A stretch of DNA of 64,000 nucleotides from Terriglobia bacterium (GTDB lineage Bacteria; Acidobacteriota; Terriglobia; Terriglobales; Acidobacteriaceae), in assembly GCA_020072585.1 (NCBI GenBank), contig JAIQGL010000018.1:1-64000 (forward strand). Reading direction: 5' to 3'. This document shows positions 17,709 to 24,499 of this stretch, in pieces. A program made the position numbers and the translations under genes. Position 1 is the stretch's first letter, and every line of letters begins with the position of its first letter. The notes beneath the pieces are model-generated. The model saw only the letters and a program-made list of their open reading frames with translations, was not told the DNA's origin and made no database searches.

Positions 17709-17975
17709 TTAAACAACGAAGGGCTGCGTATCTGGATAGTCTTCCAGAATGGCATGGTAACCGGAGTATATCTGCGTGGGTTTTGCCGTCGCGCGCTTCA
17801 GTTCGAAACGCACGCTTTCTCTGCATTGCCTGCAAAGTGGAAACCGATCACCCTTGAGTAGTGTGGCCTGATGCATCAGGCGGTGAGAATCATGAGTGAC
17901 ACGATAGACGCCGTTTTCCGGCACCATTTCTCCTGGCCTGTGCTTCTTTCGGACTGTCTTCCCTTGCTTGGGCAA
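17709..17975 (-). CDS. Conserved small hypothetical protein with a CxxC motif
   Basis: 88 residues. The middle is strongly patterned: PGEMVPENGVYRVTHDSHR, then GDRFPLCRQCRESVRFEL with a CxxC pair (LCRQC). Pattern and charge distribution look like a conserved family of short cytoplasmic proteins seen in Acidobacteria and related phyla. One CxxC alone is half a zinc site, so dimerisation or a redox role are both possible. Function unknown. Confidence 0.75.
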   Translation of the reverse strand: MPKQGKTVRKKHRPGEMVPENGVYRVTHDSHRLMHQATLLKGDRFPLCRQCRESVRFELKRATAKPTQIYSGYHAILEDYPDTQPFVV

Positions 17976-18122
17976 TACACTCCCTCGGCAGCTAAAATTA
18001 TATTAAAAGATTTTCAAGATTACTGACAAGTACAGTCTCCTGTCTTTGCAGGAACGCCAGGCATGGGCCATTCGGCTTTCCAACAATGGCGCCCGCGCTC
18101 TCGATATGGTCAGATTTTCTGA

Positions 18123-18152
18123 TTGACATGTCGTCGGAAGGTTCGCTAGCAT
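18123..18152 (+). promoter_or_regulatory. Sigma-70-type promoter of the histidine operon
   Basis: A perfect -35 hexamer TTGACA (18123-18128) is followed after 18 bases by TAGCAT (18147-18152), a four-of-six match to the -10 consensus. Transcription would start near 18159, only about three bases before the leader-peptide ATG, so that message may be nearly leaderless. Confidence 0.65.
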
Positions 18153-18161
18153 AAATCCGCA

Positions 18162-18233
18162 ATGATTTCTTCCGCCCATCGCCACCATCATCATCACACG
18201 GCGTACGTGTCGGCGGAGGCCTGTAAGAGTTAA
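18162..18233 (+). CDS. hisL: Histidine operon leader peptide
   Basis: A 23-codon frame encodes MISSAHRHHHHHTAYVSAEA followed by Cys-Lys-Ser and TAA. Six of seven consecutive residues (6-12) are His, directly comparable with the seven-His run of enterobacterial HisL. It lies between a strong promoter and an intrinsic terminator upstream of hisI. Ribosome stalling at the His codons when charged tRNA-His is scarce should favour readthrough. No Shine-Dalgarno sequence is close to the ATG, consistent with a start very near the 5' end of the RNA. Too short to be found by ordinary gene callers. Confidence 0.88.
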   Translation: MISSAHRHHHHHTAYVSAEACKS

Positions 18234-18295
18234 ACTACAGAGCAATCATCAGATAAGATGGCCCGCCGGCAAATAAATCGGCGGGCTTTTTGTTT
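18196..18295 (+). promoter_or_regulatory. Histidine attenuator (pause hairpin, antiterminator, terminator)
   Basis: The terminator stem is GCCCGCCG (18261-18268) with CGGCGGGC (18279-18286), loop of 10, followed by TTTTTGTTTT. CGGCGG inside the leader frame (18211-18216) is complementary to CCGCCG (18263-18268) and would compete with the terminator stem. A small ACACG/CGTGT hairpin (18196-18210) lies just before it. A ribosome stalled on the His codons (18183-18197) leaves 18211-18216 free; one that reaches the stop at 18231 covers it and allows termination. Confidence 0.82.
18261..18295 (+). terminator. Attenuator terminator of the his operon
   Basis: An 8-bp all-GC stem with a 10-base A/T-rich loop and a U-rich tail, 28 bases after the leader stop codon and 26 bases before the hisI ATG. 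It is the terminator arm of the attenuator described above. Confidence 0.85.
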
Positions 18296-18320
18296 TGGTG
18301 CATGCTTTCAGTGAGGACAC

Positions 18321-18662
18321 ATGCAAATCGATTTTGACAAAATGGATGGCCTGGCCCCGGCCATCGTGCAGGAAGATTCCACGGGACAGGTTCTGATGGT
18401 AGGCTTTATGAATTCCGAGTCCTATGCGCGCACGGTTGAGACCGGTTACGTGACCTTTTATTCGCGCACCCGGCAAAAGTTGTGGATGAAAGGCGAGACC
18501 TCCGGCAACCGTTTGCGCGTGATCTCAGCGCTCACAGACTGCGATCGCGACACAATCCTGGTCCGCGTTTTTGTGGAAGGCGATGGCCTGGTCTGCCATA
18601 CCGGCGCCAAATCCTGCTTTACTGAGCCGCTGGCGATCAAGACCGTGGAGGCGTCGCGATGA
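18321..18662 (+). CDS. hisI: Phosphoribosyl-AMP cyclohydrolase
   Basis: 113 residues, the length of a PRA-CH-only HisI. It opens the purine ring of phosphoribosyl-AMP, step three of histidine synthesis. Metal-binding signatures are present: [10 protein letters not shown] and [15 protein letters not shown] site precedes the ATG by four bases. Unlike the enterobacterial protein it is not fused to HisE (PRA-PH), which is not encoded in this operon. It is the first structural gene after the attenuator and overlaps hisG by ATGA. Confidence 0.95.
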
Positions 18663-19528
18663 AACTGCGCATTGGAATGCCCAAAGGAAGTTTGCAGGAG
18701 TCAACGATTGCTCTGTTCAAGCGCGCCGGACTGAACGTATATACCAGCAGCCGCTCTTACTTTGCCGCTACAGATGATGCGGAAATTGAGTGCATGCTGA
18801 TCCGGGCGCAGGAAATGGCCCGGTATGTGGACCACGGCGCCCTGGATTGCGGACTTACCGGCAAAGACTGGGTGGTGGAGAGCGGCCTGGAGATGGTGAC
18901 CGCCGCCGAGCTTACCTATGCCAAGCAGGGCCTGGGCAAAGTGCGATGGGTGCTTGCCGTGCCGGAAGATTCAGCTTTCAGGAAAGTTGAAGACCTGGCC
19001 GGAAAAATCATCGCCACTGAACTGGTGAACGTGACGCGTAACTATTTTTCCGCGCGCAACATTCCTGTGAAAGTTGAATTTTCATGGGGTGCAACGGAAG
19101 TAAAGCCGCCCACGCTGGCCGATGCAATCGTGGAAATCACGGAAACCGGCAGCTCGCTCCGGGCCAACCGGCTGCGCATTGTTGAAACGGTCATGGAATC
19201 CACCACGCAACTGATCGCCAATAAGACTGCATGGGCCGATGACGCGAAACGCCGGAAGATTGAAAGCCTGGCCCTGATGCTGTGCGGCGCCATCTATGCG
19301 CAGGGGCGGGTGGGCCTGATGCTCAACGTCCGCAAGCAAGACCTGGCTGGCGTCTTGTCCGTGCTGCCCGCGTTGCAAAAGCCTACAATTTCAACCCTGA
19401 GCGACAGCGAATGGGTGGCCGTGAATACAATCATTGAGGAAAGCACGGCGTGGAAGATTATGCCCAAGCTCAAGACCGCCAAGGCGGAAGGAATTGTCGA
19501 GTACCCGTTGAACAAGGTGGTGTTGTGA
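18659..19528 (+). CDS. hisG: ATP phosphoribosyltransferase, long form
   Basis: 289 residues. It condenses ATP and PRPP, the first and regulated step of histidine synthesis. The N-terminal catalytic lobes contain IGMPKGSLQ and the PRPP loop [12 protein letters not shown]. The C-terminal 75 residues ([26 protein letters not shown]) form the ACT-like domain of the long, hexameric class, which binds histidine as feedback inhibitor. Start and stop overlap hisI and hisD by a few bases. Confidence 0.96.
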
Positions 19529-20775
19529 TGCGCACGCTCCACGGCCGCAACGCTCAGGCGTTCGTGCGCGCGCTGGAGAAGCGCGGCGCCACCGATCTGG
19601 CCCGCGTGGAAAAACAGGTGGGCAGGATTGTGGCGGAAGTAAGAAAATATGGCGATCGCGCCTTGCGCCGTTACGCCGAAAAATGGGACGGTCTCAAACC
19701 CAGGCAGCCGCTCCGCGTCGCCGCCACCGAACTTGAGCAGGCATGGAACACGGTCCCAGAGCAATTCAAGCAGGCACTGAACACCGCGGCAGGCAACGTC
19801 AGGCAGTATTGTGAATGGCAAAGGCCGCAACCATGGCGCAATGCAGTGGCCCCGGGAATTCAGGTAGGGCAGGTGGTGAGGCCTTTACAATCCGCCGGGT
19901 GCTACGTTCCCGGAGGCCGTTATCCGCTGCCTTCCACCATGCTTATGACGGTAATTCCGGCGCAGGTGGCGGGCGTTCCTGAGGTCCGCGTCGTTTCGCC
20001 GCGCCCCGCGCTGGAAACCCTGGCTGCCGCCCATTTCCTCGGCGTGCGCGAGTTCTTCCGCATTGGCGGCGCACAGGCCATTGCTGCTTTGGCTTTTGGG
20101 ACAAAATCCGTGCCCAGGGTCGATAAGATTGTCGGCCCTGGAAATCTGTTTGTAACGGCGGCAAAGAAGATGGTGGCTTTTGATTGCGGCATTGATTTCC
20201 TGGCCGGTCCCACTGAGGTAGTGATTGTGAGTGAACGCGGAGAAGCGCGTTTCATCGCCGCCGACCTGGTGGCCCAGGCGGAGCATGACCCGGATGCGCT
20301 GGCGGTCTTTATTACCGCTTCAGACTCTCTGGCGGCCCAGGTCGCCGCTGAGGTGGACCGCGCCGCGGCCAGCAATGAAATCGCAAATATCTCCCTGAAA
20401 GACAATGGCGCAGTTCTGCTTGCCCGCTCGCACGGCGAGGCCCTCGATTTCGCCAACCGGATTGCCGCTGAACATATCACCGTGAATGAGGAAGATCTGG
20501 CGCGTGTCCGCAATGCAGGGTCCATTTTCATCGGCGACTATTCTCCGCAGGCCGCTGGCGACTATGCCGCGGGGCCGAACCACGTGCTGCCGACAGGGGC
20601 CATGGCACGCTTCCGTGGCGGACTGGGAGTGCATGATTTTGTAAAGACTATCTCTGTCCAGCAGCTCTCGCGCGACGGCCTGGCCCGCATCAGCGACGCG
20701 GTGATCACGCTGGCAGAGGCCGAAGGGCTTACGGCCCATGCAGAATCCATTCGAGTGAGGTCAGCCAATGCTTAA
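19528..20775 (+). CDS. hisD: Histidinol dehydrogenase
   Basis: 415 residues. It oxidises histidinol to histidine in two NAD-dependent steps. Signatures: AGCYVPGGRYPLPSTMLM, IDFLAGPTEVVIV, and DLVAQAEHDPDA with the zinc-region His, plus EHITVNEED and GPNHVLPTG. The ATG at 19528 overlaps the hisG stop (TGATG) and fits the family N-terminus. A longer frame runs back into hisG and is not used. Confidence 0.96.
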   Translation: MRTLHGRNAQAFVRALEKRGATDLARVEKQVGRIVAEVRKYGDRALRRYAEKWDGLKPRQPLRVAATELEQAWNTVPEQFKQALNTAAGNVRQYCEWQRPQPWRNAVAPGIQVGQVVRPLQSAGCYVPGGRYPLPSTMLMTVIPAQVAGVPEVRVVSPRPALETLAAAHFLGVREFFRIGGAQAIAALAFGTKSVPRVDKIVGPGNLFVTAAKKMVAFDCGIDFLAGPTEVVIVSERGEARFIAADLVAQAEHDPDALAVFITASDSLAAQVAAEVDRAAASNEIANISLKDNGAVLLARSHGEALDFANRIAAEHITVNEEDLARVRNAGSIFIGDYSPQAAGDYAAGPNHVLPTGAMARFRGGLGVHDFVKTISVQQLSRDGLARISDAVITLAEAEGLTAHAESIRVRSANA

Positions 20776-21835
20776 AGCGCGCAAGTGCGTCCGTGAGATG
20801 CGTGAATACCATTCTCCTCTGAGCAGTACCGCCACCAATCTCCGCCTGGACATGAATGAGAGCACCACCGGTTGCTCACCCCGTGTTCTGGCCAAATTGC
20901 ACAGCATGGATGCGAAAGCTCTAGCGCTCTATCCGCGGCGCGAGTCAGGGGAAAAGCTTGTGGCCGACTCCCTCGGCATTCCTGCCGCGCAAGTCCTGCT
21001 CACCAACGGCGCCGACGAAGGCATTGACCTCCTTTGCCGCGCGTATTTGGAGCCGGAAAACGAAATCGTGGTTGTGGTCCCGACTTTCACCATGTATGAA
21101 GTCTTTGCGCAAATGGAAAATGCGAAAGTCGTGCGTGTGCCAACAGGACCGGAGTTCAGCTTTCCCACACAGCGCGTGATTGACTCTCTGAGCGGCAACA
21201 CCAGGCTGATTGTCATCTGCAATCCTAACAACCCAACCGGCACGGCGGTTGCGCGGTCCAGCATCATGAAAGTAATTGAAGCCGCGCCTGACGCGGCAGT
21301 CTTACTGGACGAAGCTTATTTTGACTTCAGTGGGCAGACCATGATGGAGCAGATTGGCAAGCTCCCGAATCTGTTCATCGCGCGCACATTTTCCAAGGCC
21401 TATGGGCTCGCCGGCATGCGTCTGGGCATATTGGCCGGTGATCAGGAACAGATGTCTGTGTTACGCCGCATGGCTTCTCCCTTCAATGTGAATGCATTCG
21501 CCATAGAGTGCCTGGCAGAAGCTCTGGCTGACCGGCAATTTGTTGCTGCCTATGTTTCCCAGGTACAAACCAGCCGTGAATGGCTGCGCCGAGAGCTTGA
21601 GCAGCTTGGTTTCAAGTGCTGGCCCAGCCAGGCAAACTTTATTCTCTGCCGTTTCGGAGAAGAGAAGAAAGCCATGCTTGAAGCTCTGCGCGCCCGCGGA
21701 ATTGCGCTGCGTGACCGTCCGGATTGCGAAGGCTGCGTGCGCATCAGCATTGGGACCCAACAGGAGATGGAGCGCTTGCTCACTGAACTGAAGCAAGTCC
21801 TGTATCAGCTTCCGGCGGCAAAGGCGGCGCGGTGA
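20768..21835 (+). CDS. hisC: Histidinol-phosphate aminotransferase
   Basis: 355 residues, fold-type I PLP enzyme. The Lys that binds PLP is in [15 protein letters not shown], preceded by NPNNPTGT and LLDEAYFDF. It converts imidazole-acetol phosphate to histidinol phosphate. It overlaps the hisD end by eight bases. Confidence 0.95.
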
Positions 21836-21875
21836 AAACGCCTTCAATATCAGGAAGACCTATGAGATCCGCGCT

Positions 21876-22463
21876 ATGAGAAAAGCCACTCTCCGCCGCG
21901 TAACTACAGAGACGCAGATCCGGCTTGCGTTGACCATTGAAGGCCGGGGCCGTTACCAGGTCTCCACGGGCATACGCTTTCTTGACCATATGCTGGAGCT
22001 GTTCACGCGCCATGGCGCTTTTGACCTGAAGCTGAAAGCCACTGGCGATCTGGACGTTGACCAGCACCACACCGTGGAAGACGTGGGCATCGCGCTGGGT
22101 GAAGCTTTCCTTAGCGCGCTTGGCGACAAACGCGGCATCATGCGCGCCGGATACTTTGTGATGCCCATGGATGAAACGCTGGGCGTGGCGGCAGTGGATT
22201 TCAGCGGACGCGCCGCGGCCGTGATCAATACACAGGTCAAAACGCGGCTGGTCGGCGATCTTCAATCTGAACTGGTCGATGATTTCTTTGAGGGATTTGC
22301 GCGAGGCGCCCGCGCCAACGTTCACCTGAAAACCATCTATGGCCGCTCCAACCATCACAAGATTGAGGCGCTCTTCAAGGCATTTGCCCGCGCTCTGCGC
22401 GTGGCTTGTTCGCGCGACAAGCAACTGGCAAAAATGCTGCCCAGCACCAAGGGCCTTCTATGA
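21876..22463 (+). CDS. hisB: Imidazoleglycerol-phosphate dehydratase
   Basis: 195 residues, the monofunctional IGPD form without the phosphatase domain found in enteric HisB. Both metal-binding histidine clusters are present ([13 protein letters not shown] ... [14 protein letters not shown], and [20 protein letters not shown]). Forty bases separate it from hisC, the widest gap in the operon. The stop overlaps hisH by ATGA. Confidence 0.96.
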
Positions 22464-23047
22464 TTGCAATTGTCGATTATGGCGCGGGCAATATCAGCTC
22501 AGTCAAGAAAGCCCTGGAACATTTGCGGACAGAAGCGCAGGTAACTTTCGATCCAGCAGTGATTGCGGCGGCGGAGAAAATTATTGTTCCTGGAGTGGGC
22601 CACTTCAGCCGCTGCCAATCATTAAATGGAAACCTGCGGCTGTCCGTGCTCAATGCCATCAGCGGCGGCAAACCGTTCCTGGGGATCTGCGTGGGCATGC
22701 AGTGGCTGTTTGAAGGCAGCACGGAAGCCCCGGAGACGCCGGGCGCTGCGCTGTTCCCCGGGGAATGCTCCCGCTTCCCTGCCTCAGTGAAATCACCACA
22801 CGTGGGCTGGAACCAGATCGAGACCGGCAAAGAATCGCGCCTGCTGAAAGGCATCAGCAGCGGAGCGTTTGTCTACTTCACCCATTCTTTTCGCGCGCCG
22901 ATCATCGAAGAGACTGTGGCATGCACAAGGTATGGCGGAGCCTTTTCTGCCGCCGTGGAGCGCGACAGCGTCTTCGGTGTTCAGTTCCATCCGGAGAAAT
23001 CCGCGGAAACAGGATTGAAGGTTCTGGAGAACTTCTGTGCCCTCTGA
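22460..23047 (+). CDS. hisH: Imidazole glycerol phosphate synthase, glutaminase subunit
   Basis: 195 residues, class I glutamine amidotransferase. The nucleophile Cys is in [15 protein letters not shown] and the catalytic His-Glu pair in GVQFHPEKS. It feeds ammonia to HisF. The ATG at 22460 overlaps the hisB stop and gives the family start [11 protein letters not shown]. Confidence 0.96.
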
Positions 23048-23834
23048 GCGGCTCGCTAAACGAATCATCGCATGTCTTGACGTGGACGCCGGACGGGTGG
23101 TCAAGGGCGTGAAGTTCCAGCAGCTGCGCGATGCCGGCGATCCTGCGGAACTGGCGCGCGTACATGCCGCTGCCGGAGCAGACGAGATTGTGATGCTCGA
23201 CATTACAGCAACGTCAGAAGGTCGAAAGACGCTGGTGGAAACGGTCCGCCGCACGGCGCACGATCTGTTTGTGCCCTTCACCGTTGGCGGCGGCGTGCGA
23301 ACGCTGGAAGATGCAGCCAGGATTTTTGATGCAGGCGCGGACAAAGTCAGCATCAACTCAGCGGCAGTCTCCAATCCGGCACTGATCGGGGAGATCGCCG
23401 GCCGCTTCGGTTCACAGGCAGTGATTATCGCGATTGATGCGCGGCGGGGCGCCGGTCCAGCGGACACCGCAGAGGTCTTTGTCGCAGGGGGCCGCACGGC
23501 CACGGGCAAAAAAGCGTTGGCGTGGGCGCGCGAAGCAGAAGAGCGGGGCGCTGGCGAAATCCTGCTGACCTCAATGGACCGCGATGGCACCGGCATTGGC
23601 TTTGATTGTGAGCTTACCGCCGCAATCGCCGGGTCCGTTGCGATTCCGGTGATCGCTTCAGGCGGCGCAGGGAACGCACAACATTTTGTTGAAGTCTTTA
23701 CGGCCGGCAAAGCCGACGCCGCACTGGCTGCTTCCATATTTCACTTTGGAAATCAGCACTTCGGCACTAATGCCGTAGCCGAACTCAAGCAGATTCTCCT
23801 CGACCATGGCATTCCCATGAGGTGGCCATGCTGA
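23037..23834 (+). CDS. hisF: Imidazole glycerol phosphate synthase, cyclase subunit
   Basis: 265 residues, TIM barrel. It starts with GTG at 23037 inside the hisH end. Catalytic Asp residues lie in [16 protein letters not shown] and in [10 protein letters not shown]; phosphate loops are GGGVRTLED and ASGGAGN. It makes IGP and AICAR with HisH. Confidence 0.96.
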
Positions 23835-24499
23835 TTCCTTCCATTGATCTTATGGACGGCAAGATCGTGCAATTGGTCCAGGGGGAAAAGAAGGCGCTGG
23901 AGTTCGATGACTTTGACTACTGGATTGAGCGCTTCTCGGCATATCCGCTGGTACAACTGATCGACCTGGATGCAGCCATGGGCCGCGGCAACAATCGCGA
24001 ACTGATCGCCATGATCTGCAAACGGCTTCCCTGCCAAACCGGCGGCGGCATCCGCGATATTGCGCGCGGCGGCGAATTGCTGGCGCTCGGCGCCAAACGG
24101 GTTATCTTTGGATCAGCGTTGCTTAAAGATGGAACAATCAATACGGCCCTGGCCTCGGAGGCGGCGAAAACTCTCGGCGTGGAACAGCTCGCTTTTGCGA
24201 TCGACTCACGCCGTGGCAAGGTTGCGATTCAGGGCTGGAAAGAAGCGACGTCGATCGGCCCGGCAGACATGATCCGCGCGCTCGATCCATACTGTAGTGC
24301 GTTTCTCTACACGCACATCGATACCGAAGGCACGATGACTGGATTTCCCCTGGGCCTTGCGCAAGAGCTGGCAAACATGACCAAGCAGCAACTCATTGTT
24401 GCGGGAGGTATCCGGTCGCGCACAGAGGTAGATGAACTGGAGGCCATCGGAGTGGACGCAGTCGTCGGCATGGCGATTTACACCGGGGCCATGCAGTAA
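23822..24499 (+). CDS. hisA: Phosphoribosylformimino-AICAR isomerase (ProFAR isomerase)
   Basis: 225 residues, TIM barrel related to His[19 protein letters not shown] holds the catalytic Asp, and [11 protein letters not shown] the second one; phosphate loops are GGGIRD and AGGIRSRTE. The start may be GTG at 23822 or ATG at 23828; both overlap the hisF stop. Last gene of the operon. Confidence 0.95.

Follow-up and report, generated by a model that had tools for sequence, protein, structure and literature searches.

A probable leaderless histidine attenuator upstream of a hisI-first operon in Terriglobia

The histidine operon in the 64,000-nt window analysed here (positions 1 to 64,000 of contig JAIQGL010000018.1 of a Terriglobia bacterium, assembly GCA_020072585.1) is preceded by a short region, 18123-18295, in which a promoter, a leader frame, an intrinsic terminator and a competing antiterminator all lie upstream of hisI. 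We consider it very likely that the region 18123-18296 controls the his operon by ribosome-mediated transcription attenuation; its anatomy, its conservation and the covariation of its arms are observed directly in the sequences compared. The features are as follows.

18123..18152, plus strand: sigma70-type promoter, with TTGACA at 18123-18128, an 18-nt spacer and TAGCAT at 18147-18152, agreeing with the consensus at 10 of 12 positions
18157..18161, plus strand: predicted zone of transcription initiation, between 1 and 5 nt ahead of the leader ATG, placed from the spacing between the -10 box and the ATG
18162..18233, plus strand: leader peptide hisL, MISSAHRHHHHHTAYVSAEACKS, 23 codons, stop TAA at 18231-18233, with counterparts in relatives
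18170..18183, plus strand: segment 1, 5' arm of the 1:2 protector hairpin, within the leader frame, pairing with 18200-18218 in the predicted fold
18177..18197, plus strand: regulatory codons 6-12, His Arg His5, read from the frame
18207..18222, plus strand: segment 2, antiterminator arm, core GTCGGCGG at 18209-18216, in the leader frame past the His codons, supported by covariation
18260..18269, plus strand: segment 3, 5' arm of the terminator and also the partner of segment 2 (18263-18270), from fold and covariation
18278..18287, plus strand: segment 4, 3' arm of the terminator, from fold and covariation
18287..18296, plus strand: U-tract of the intrinsic terminator, TTTTTGTTTT, read from the sequence
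18321..18662, plus strand: hisI, phosphoribosyl-AMP cyclohydrolase, the first structural gene (NCBIfam NF000768, 136.4 bits against a cut-off of 126)
18659..24499, plus strand: hisG, hisD, hisC, hisB, hisH, hisF and hisA, the rest of the operon, from family matches

The operon thus runs in the order hisI-G-D-C-B-H-F-A, and its frames abut or overlap except for a 40-nt gap before hisB (the starts of hisD and hisH are our choice); the best family for hisA, TIGR00007, scored below its curated cut-off. Among the eight operon genes examined between 18321 and 24499, hisI is present and hisE is absent.

Most of the anatomy had been proposed beforehand from the letters of the window, and it holds up well on closer analysis. 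The promoter TTGACA-18-TAGCAT lies where the original prediction had put it, and the 23-residue leader does contain six His and one Arg at residues 6-12 (H R H H H H H). The terminator, previously placed at 18261-18286 plus a U-tract, was recovered as a hairpin of 10 pairs (8 of them G-C) at 18260-18287 followed by a U-tract, and the proposed competing elements CGGCGG (18211-18216) and CCGCCG (18263-18268) are both present at those positions, within a longer predicted 2:3 pairing of 18207-18222 with about 18259-18271 (-21.6 kcal/mol). A further element, the 1:2 hairpin formed by 18170-18183 and 18200-18218 (-18.6 kcal/mol alone), had been missing from that proposal. With the 1:2 hairpin and the 3:4 terminator both formed, the RNA 18160-18295 folds at -47.2 kcal/mol (z = -3.6), a value matched by one of 200 shuffles. 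The linker between the leader stop and the terminator (18234-18259) is partly conserved in the nearest relatives, being of the ACAGCGCAATCATAAGAT type.

Conservation was examined through hisI. Searches for HisI gave matches in 30 of 41 close relatives, in 266 of 299 genomes of the class and in 77 of 119 genomes of the phylum, and a named-record set comprised the best 80 of at least 586 relatives. From these, 194 hisI loci were read over up to 400-450 nt upstream each: 54 from the close-relative and class searches, the 80 named records, and 60 more that we picked across genera from the matches listed. A His leader, defined as a frame of 8-60 codons with at least four His in nine residues, lies upstream of hisI in 130 of the 194 loci, that is, in 53 of the first 54, in 19 of the 21 acidobacterial loci among the best 80 named records, in 57 of the 60 further loci, and in one of 59 non-acidobacterial loci, which serve as an unmatched control in that the position of hisI in the operon may differ there. 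The acidobacterial total is 129 of 135 stretches, including a few genomes present twice from different collections; the 130 leader stretches reduce to 125 non-redundant ones. The six acidobacterial exceptions are L029, with no leader before hisI; L062, which ends with its contig; L164 and L177, whose leaders carry three His in nine residues and are accompanied by terminators; and L068 and L167, upstream of whose hisI no leader could be recognised.

A terminator-like hairpin follows the leader in 124 of the 125 non-redundant stretches, and in 90% of these 124 loci it scores above the 95th percentile of shuffles. Relatives lacking the His run, the terminator or the competing pairing had been named in advance as evidence against the proposal; in nearly all relatives read, the three parts are kept together.

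A covariance model of the attenuator, R1, was built from the 15-row alignment described below and run on 60 family genomes. It found one strong copy (E <= 2.1e-9) in 41 of them, every other listed match having an E value of 6.2e-7 or worse under stricter filters, and in all 24 of the 41 genomes in which hisI had been located the strong copy lies just upstream of that gene. The 19 family genomes with no strong copy comprise seven with no HisI match, one (G246) with a weaker copy beside hisI, and 11 that lay outside the HisI searches. Neither a HisI match nor a strong attenuator match was seen in G012, G018, G019, G022, G249, G276 and G324, in which histidine synthesis has possibly been lost or hisI replaced. 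Such a model could annotate the attenuator in metagenomes. In the window's own genome it also gave weak extra matches (G000:C1:193466-193610 and others, E 6.6e-6 and worse), which are possibly His-rich coding stretches.

The competing helices were assessed for covariation in two sets of rows. A MAFFT alignment, A2, contained 15 rows that we chose from 125 (L018, L037 and L040 were left out, and L003 was cut at its 3' end). In these rows the 2:3 helix has 96.7% paired cells, against 54.4% at best when slid, and the 3:4 helix 97.0% against 54.8%. Cells in which both sides had changed numbered seven for 2:3, against 2.3 in shuffles, and 13 for 3:4, against 3.7 expected; none of 500 shuffles reached either count, although relatedness was not removed from these comparisons. 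Two of the five measures were weaker, namely changed pairs (28/500 for 2:3 and 17/500 for 3:4) and pair types (371/500 and 176/500). The three segments also change together: at alignment columns 63, 129 and 147, which fall in segments 2, 3 and 4, seven rows read G-C-G, four G-U-A, three A-U-A and one A-U-C, linked changes of the kind that selection on both alternative helices would be expected to produce.

In the larger set of 55 rows, segment 2 was placed by a peptide motif and segment 3 by CCCGC, independently of their pairing; 16 rows taken to be of the same family but lacking the V/M-S/P/L-A motif were omitted. Here the 2:3 pairing reached 96.1% against a shuffle mean of 93.7%, with none of 2000 shuffles as high (the shuffles keep column make-up and not relatedness), and 14 cells had changed on both sides against 5.4 expected, a count equalled in five of 2000 shuffles that likewise ignore relatedness. 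Compensatory changes, which had been suggested as the check on the switch, are thus found between the letters of the leader arm and those of the terminator arm (0/500 and 0/2000 shuffles). Across loci the 2:3 duplex has a median energy of -19.35 kcal/mol, with a median z against shuffles of only -1.9; when arms are swapped between loci the pairing becomes weaker on average, with a mean of -16.6 against -18.5 for the own arms, and the mean rank of the own pairing is 0.39 or 0.32 (neutral, 0.5).

The most distinctive feature, the way in which the leader starts, was not considered in the original prediction. The leader ATG stands 9 nt past the -10 box and is preceded by no Shine-Dalgarno sequence. 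Given the usual distance from a -10 box to +1, this spacing means that transcription probably begins 1-5 nt before the ATG, which leaves no room for a Shine-Dalgarno sequence, and the leader mRNA is therefore predicted to be leaderless or nearly so. The relatives follow the same pattern. A TANNNT ending 4-11 nt before the start codon occurs in 118 of 130 leaders, against 10.3 expected from shuffles, with distances that peak at 8-10 nt. Leader starts had been chosen with ATG preferred on ties and with no use of promoter information. The choice went wrong in L070 and L079, where the real starts are probably a GTG and an upstream ATG, respectively; in the 123 rows that remain when these two are removed from the 125 non-redundant stretches, the near -10 (TANNNT 4-11 nt before the ATG) is found in 113, and a full promoter 6-15 nt before the start in 94. 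Upstream of hisI itself, SD-like cores occur at 58 of 92 loci with a placeable start. In the three genomes of this phylum examined at the time, an average of 13.3% of genes were predicted to be leaderless (PMC3160421).

Alternatively, the attenuator might be the same but its leader be translated in the conventional way, on a transcript that begins at a promoter further upstream and has a longer 5' UTR, with the near promoter not serving as the principal start. A weaker promoter-like site does exist at 17969-17998, and the near start is itself placed from spacing. Against this, the near -10 is accompanied by TTGAC 15-19 nt further upstream in 92 of 130 leaders, where 0.04 would be expected, and SD-like cores precede only three of the 130, fewer than the 8.35 seen in shuffles; we thus judge the longer transcript improbable as the main one and retain the leaderless start as the preferred reading.

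How the attenuator would act can be outlined from the established enteric mechanism together with a folding model, on both of which the proposed stalling, termination and histidine response depend. RNA polymerase would start at, or a few nucleotides before, the leader ATG, and a ribosome would load directly onto the (near-)leaderless 5' end. When charged tRNA-His is scarce, the ribosome would stall on codons 6-12 and mask segment 1, leaving segment 2 (18207-18222) free to pair with segment 3 before segment 4 is synthesised, so that no terminator would form and hisI-A would be transcribed. When histidine is plentiful, the ribosome would run on and cover segment 2 (A site on codons 15-23); on its arrival at the stop codon, segment 1, freed behind it, would capture segment 2, and segments 3 and 4 would form the terminator.

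This scheme was followed codon by codon in a ribosome walk with an assumed start at 18159 and a ribosome footprint extending 15 nt upstream and 12 nt downstream of the first A-site base. With the RNA behind the ribosome kept and segment 4 still unmade, the model gives 7.1-8.9 antiterminator pairs while the A site is on codons 6-12. The number drops to 3.1 when codon 13 occupies the A site and to 0.4 for codon 14, and it does not exceed 0.3 at any position between codon 15 and the stop codon. Once the stop codon is reached, the 1:2 hairpin is predicted to have 7.9 pairs. A walk that omits the RNA behind the ribosome agrees, giving about 6-7 antiterminator pairs at codons 1-13 and none from codon 15. 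The claim that stalling positions predict exactly the classical switch is thus borne out in the folding model as regards the outcome, but not entirely as regards the means: in the window, the trailing edge of a ribosome at the stop codon only touches the antiterminator core, which in the model is withheld by the upstream hairpin rather than by ribosome cover.

The model sets further bounds on the mechanism. In the finished RNA at thermodynamic equilibrium the terminator is predicted to win at all ribosome positions, and the switch must therefore be kinetic. Any stall before codon 13, on His or not, would antiterminate. In the absence of a ribosome and with segment 4 unmade, the 2:3 pairing (7.0 pairs) is predicted to outweigh 1:2 (4.3 pairs), so that there is no good support for 1:2 as a safeguard against read-through when nothing is translated, and basal control without translation is uncertain. 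In the relatives, the last His codon is followed by segment 2 after a median of 9 nt (124 loci). A geometry in which the arm is free at the first His and withheld at the stop, computed with the RNA behind the ribosome omitted, is found in 112 of 124 loci; when the segment-2 regions are shuffled, it appears in 433 of 1240. The share of the paired segment 2 that would be hidden by a ribosome at the stop codon has a median of 47% and is zero in 29 of the 124 loci; thus, in many relatives, the withholding of segment 2 must be completed by ribosome release or by the 1:2 hairpin.

Other accounts of the locus make the leader frame dispensable or assign it another task. Were the region a T-box or a metabolite riboswitch reading tRNA-His or histidine, the leader peptide would not be needed and its His frame would be incidental; a T-box-like element is indeed borne by hisDCB of C. 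glutamicum (PMC3896937). No Rfam family, however, was matched at the gathering threshold in the whole window, the T-box models and the proteobacterial His leader (RF00514; PMC9413887) included, and the seven matches at E <= 10 within 18000-18400 contain neither of these and nothing convincing. The His-rich frame, moreover, is kept among relatives while its sequence and length vary, and segment 2 begins within the frame in 120 of 124 loci. We accordingly regard a riboswitch as very improbable. A constitutive leader and terminator is also conceivable, the hairpin only lowering basal expression or ending a small RNA and the His-rich peptide acting in trans, for example in metal binding. His runs occur in metal-binding proteins as well. 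The trp leader peptide and RNA of S. meliloti act in trans (PMC7298713). The covariation of the antiterminator arm with the terminator arm and the short distance of segment 2 past the His codons both argue against such a division of roles, as does the single strong copy in 41 of 60 genomes, standing beside hisI in all 24 with hisI located; we think this account unlikely, if somewhat less so than a riboswitch. A chance His run beside the terminator of the upstream gene, finally, is an explanation to which we give almost no weight. The upstream neighbour, a MATE transporter gene, is on the minus strand, and the terminator is thus not that gene's; when the leader-bearing stretches underwent dinucleotide shuffling, 16 of 1250 shuffles passed the His-leader definition, and conservation in relatives contradicts chance.

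Ribosome-mediated attenuation, as the reading that we retain, is itself well known, and several described systems resemble the present one in part. In the enteric his operon, hisG comes first and the leader start is SD-led. The enteric attenuator of E. coli and S. typhimurium shares with ours a run of His codons in a short leader, a terminator and a mutually exclusive antiterminator before the his genes (PMC3896937; PMC9413887), whereas the acidobacterial one is hisI-first, predicted to be leaderless, unmatched by the Rfam His leader, and, in the window, has a His run broken by Arg. His attenuation had been taken at the outset as established mainly for Gammaproteobacteria; it is not limited to them, since candidates have been described in 17 species of three Firmicutes lineages (the B. 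cereus group, Peptostreptococcaceae with Lutispora, and Erysipelotrichales), with hisS*/hisZ involved in bacilli (PMC9413887; PMC2965389). The Firmicutes candidates likewise combine a His leader peptide with a terminator and antiterminator, and RF00514 has no occurrence in Firmicutes either according to the excerpts of these papers; they belong to another phylum, the feature here is present in 129 of 135 stretches, and leaderless spacing goes unmentioned for Firmicutes in the same excerpts. In Streptomyces lividans, leaderless leader peptides (leuL, trpL, ilvL and others) precede amino-acid genes (PMC8079986); the eight named in the excerpted text include no His leader, and their transcription starts were measured, whereas ours is predicted. 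The RNA of the trpL attenuator of Sinorhizobium meliloti likewise has the leader ATG as its 5' end, but the system concerns tryptophan, belongs to Alphaproteobacteria, and has a leader peptide and RNA with trans roles (PMC7298713). In Actinobacteria, the regions upstream of histidine operons are reported to show no conserved RNA structure (PMC1262725).

In the openly licensed literature searched, no paper was seen to describe such an attenuator for Acidobacteriota, an absence that is not proof, and the excerpts of PMC4833913 and PMC2965389 describe none. What appears to be new is a predicted leaderless, hisI-first His attenuator that nearly all of the Terriglobia loci read possess and that also occurs in some other families of Acidobacteriota. 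It unites attenuation with leaderless initiation, and its more than 120 natural variants make design rules testable, including the number of His codons, spacing, arm strength and leaderless loading.

Within the family, the leaders of Terracidiphilus gabretensis and Granulicella rosea (L058 and L065), together with 45 nt upstream, are identical to those of the family members L038 and L143, an identity that points to Acidobacteriaceae as the family of the window. Outside it, 65 genomes had HisI, and the 18 best-scoring loci, which lean towards the window's kind of HisI, were read: a leader is present at eight (L207-L214) and absent from ten (L215-L224), and that of L213 resembles the leader of L076, a record titled Vicinamibacterales. 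In the other families, a scan upstream of hisG and hisD covered 40 of 54 loci (14 hisD loci were left out, and L236 offered only 19 nt of upstream sequence) and found His-rich frames at four, before hisG in G361, G414 and G366 and before hisD in G330. In G330 (L263) and G366 (L231, with an uncertain start) the His-rich leader is accompanied by a terminator-like hairpin; the leader of G330 is probably not leaderless, because an SD-like AAGGAG is present. We add a tentative proposal, which we hold to be rather more doubtful than probable: a lineage-specific leaderless His attenuator may predate the Terriglobia/Vicinamibacterales-type split, with loading of intact 70S ribosomes at the start codon of the nascent 5' end as part of the mechanism, such that a ribosome would be in place a few nucleotides into synthesis, before segment 2 emerges, and the device may later have moved with, or re-arisen at, hisG or hisD in other families.

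Analogous leaders were also sought before trpE, two HMGL-like genes and two TPP-enzyme genes in the window's own genome, and none was convincing at these five loci, for which gene starts were guessed; at L280, four nested frames with three Leu in eight residues were taken to be the end of an upstream coding frame and rejected. The sole His leader among the 59 non-acidobacterial loci, MSFVHQAHHCHHHRSPNGPARVCA, belongs to L077, a MAG titled Cyanobacteria bacterium (JAIEMQ010000004.1). It is closely similar to MSLVHHAHRSHHHRSPKRPAGVCA of L208, from an acidobacterial family, and because of this resemblance a binning or labelling error in the MAG is probable, or else the operon has moved.
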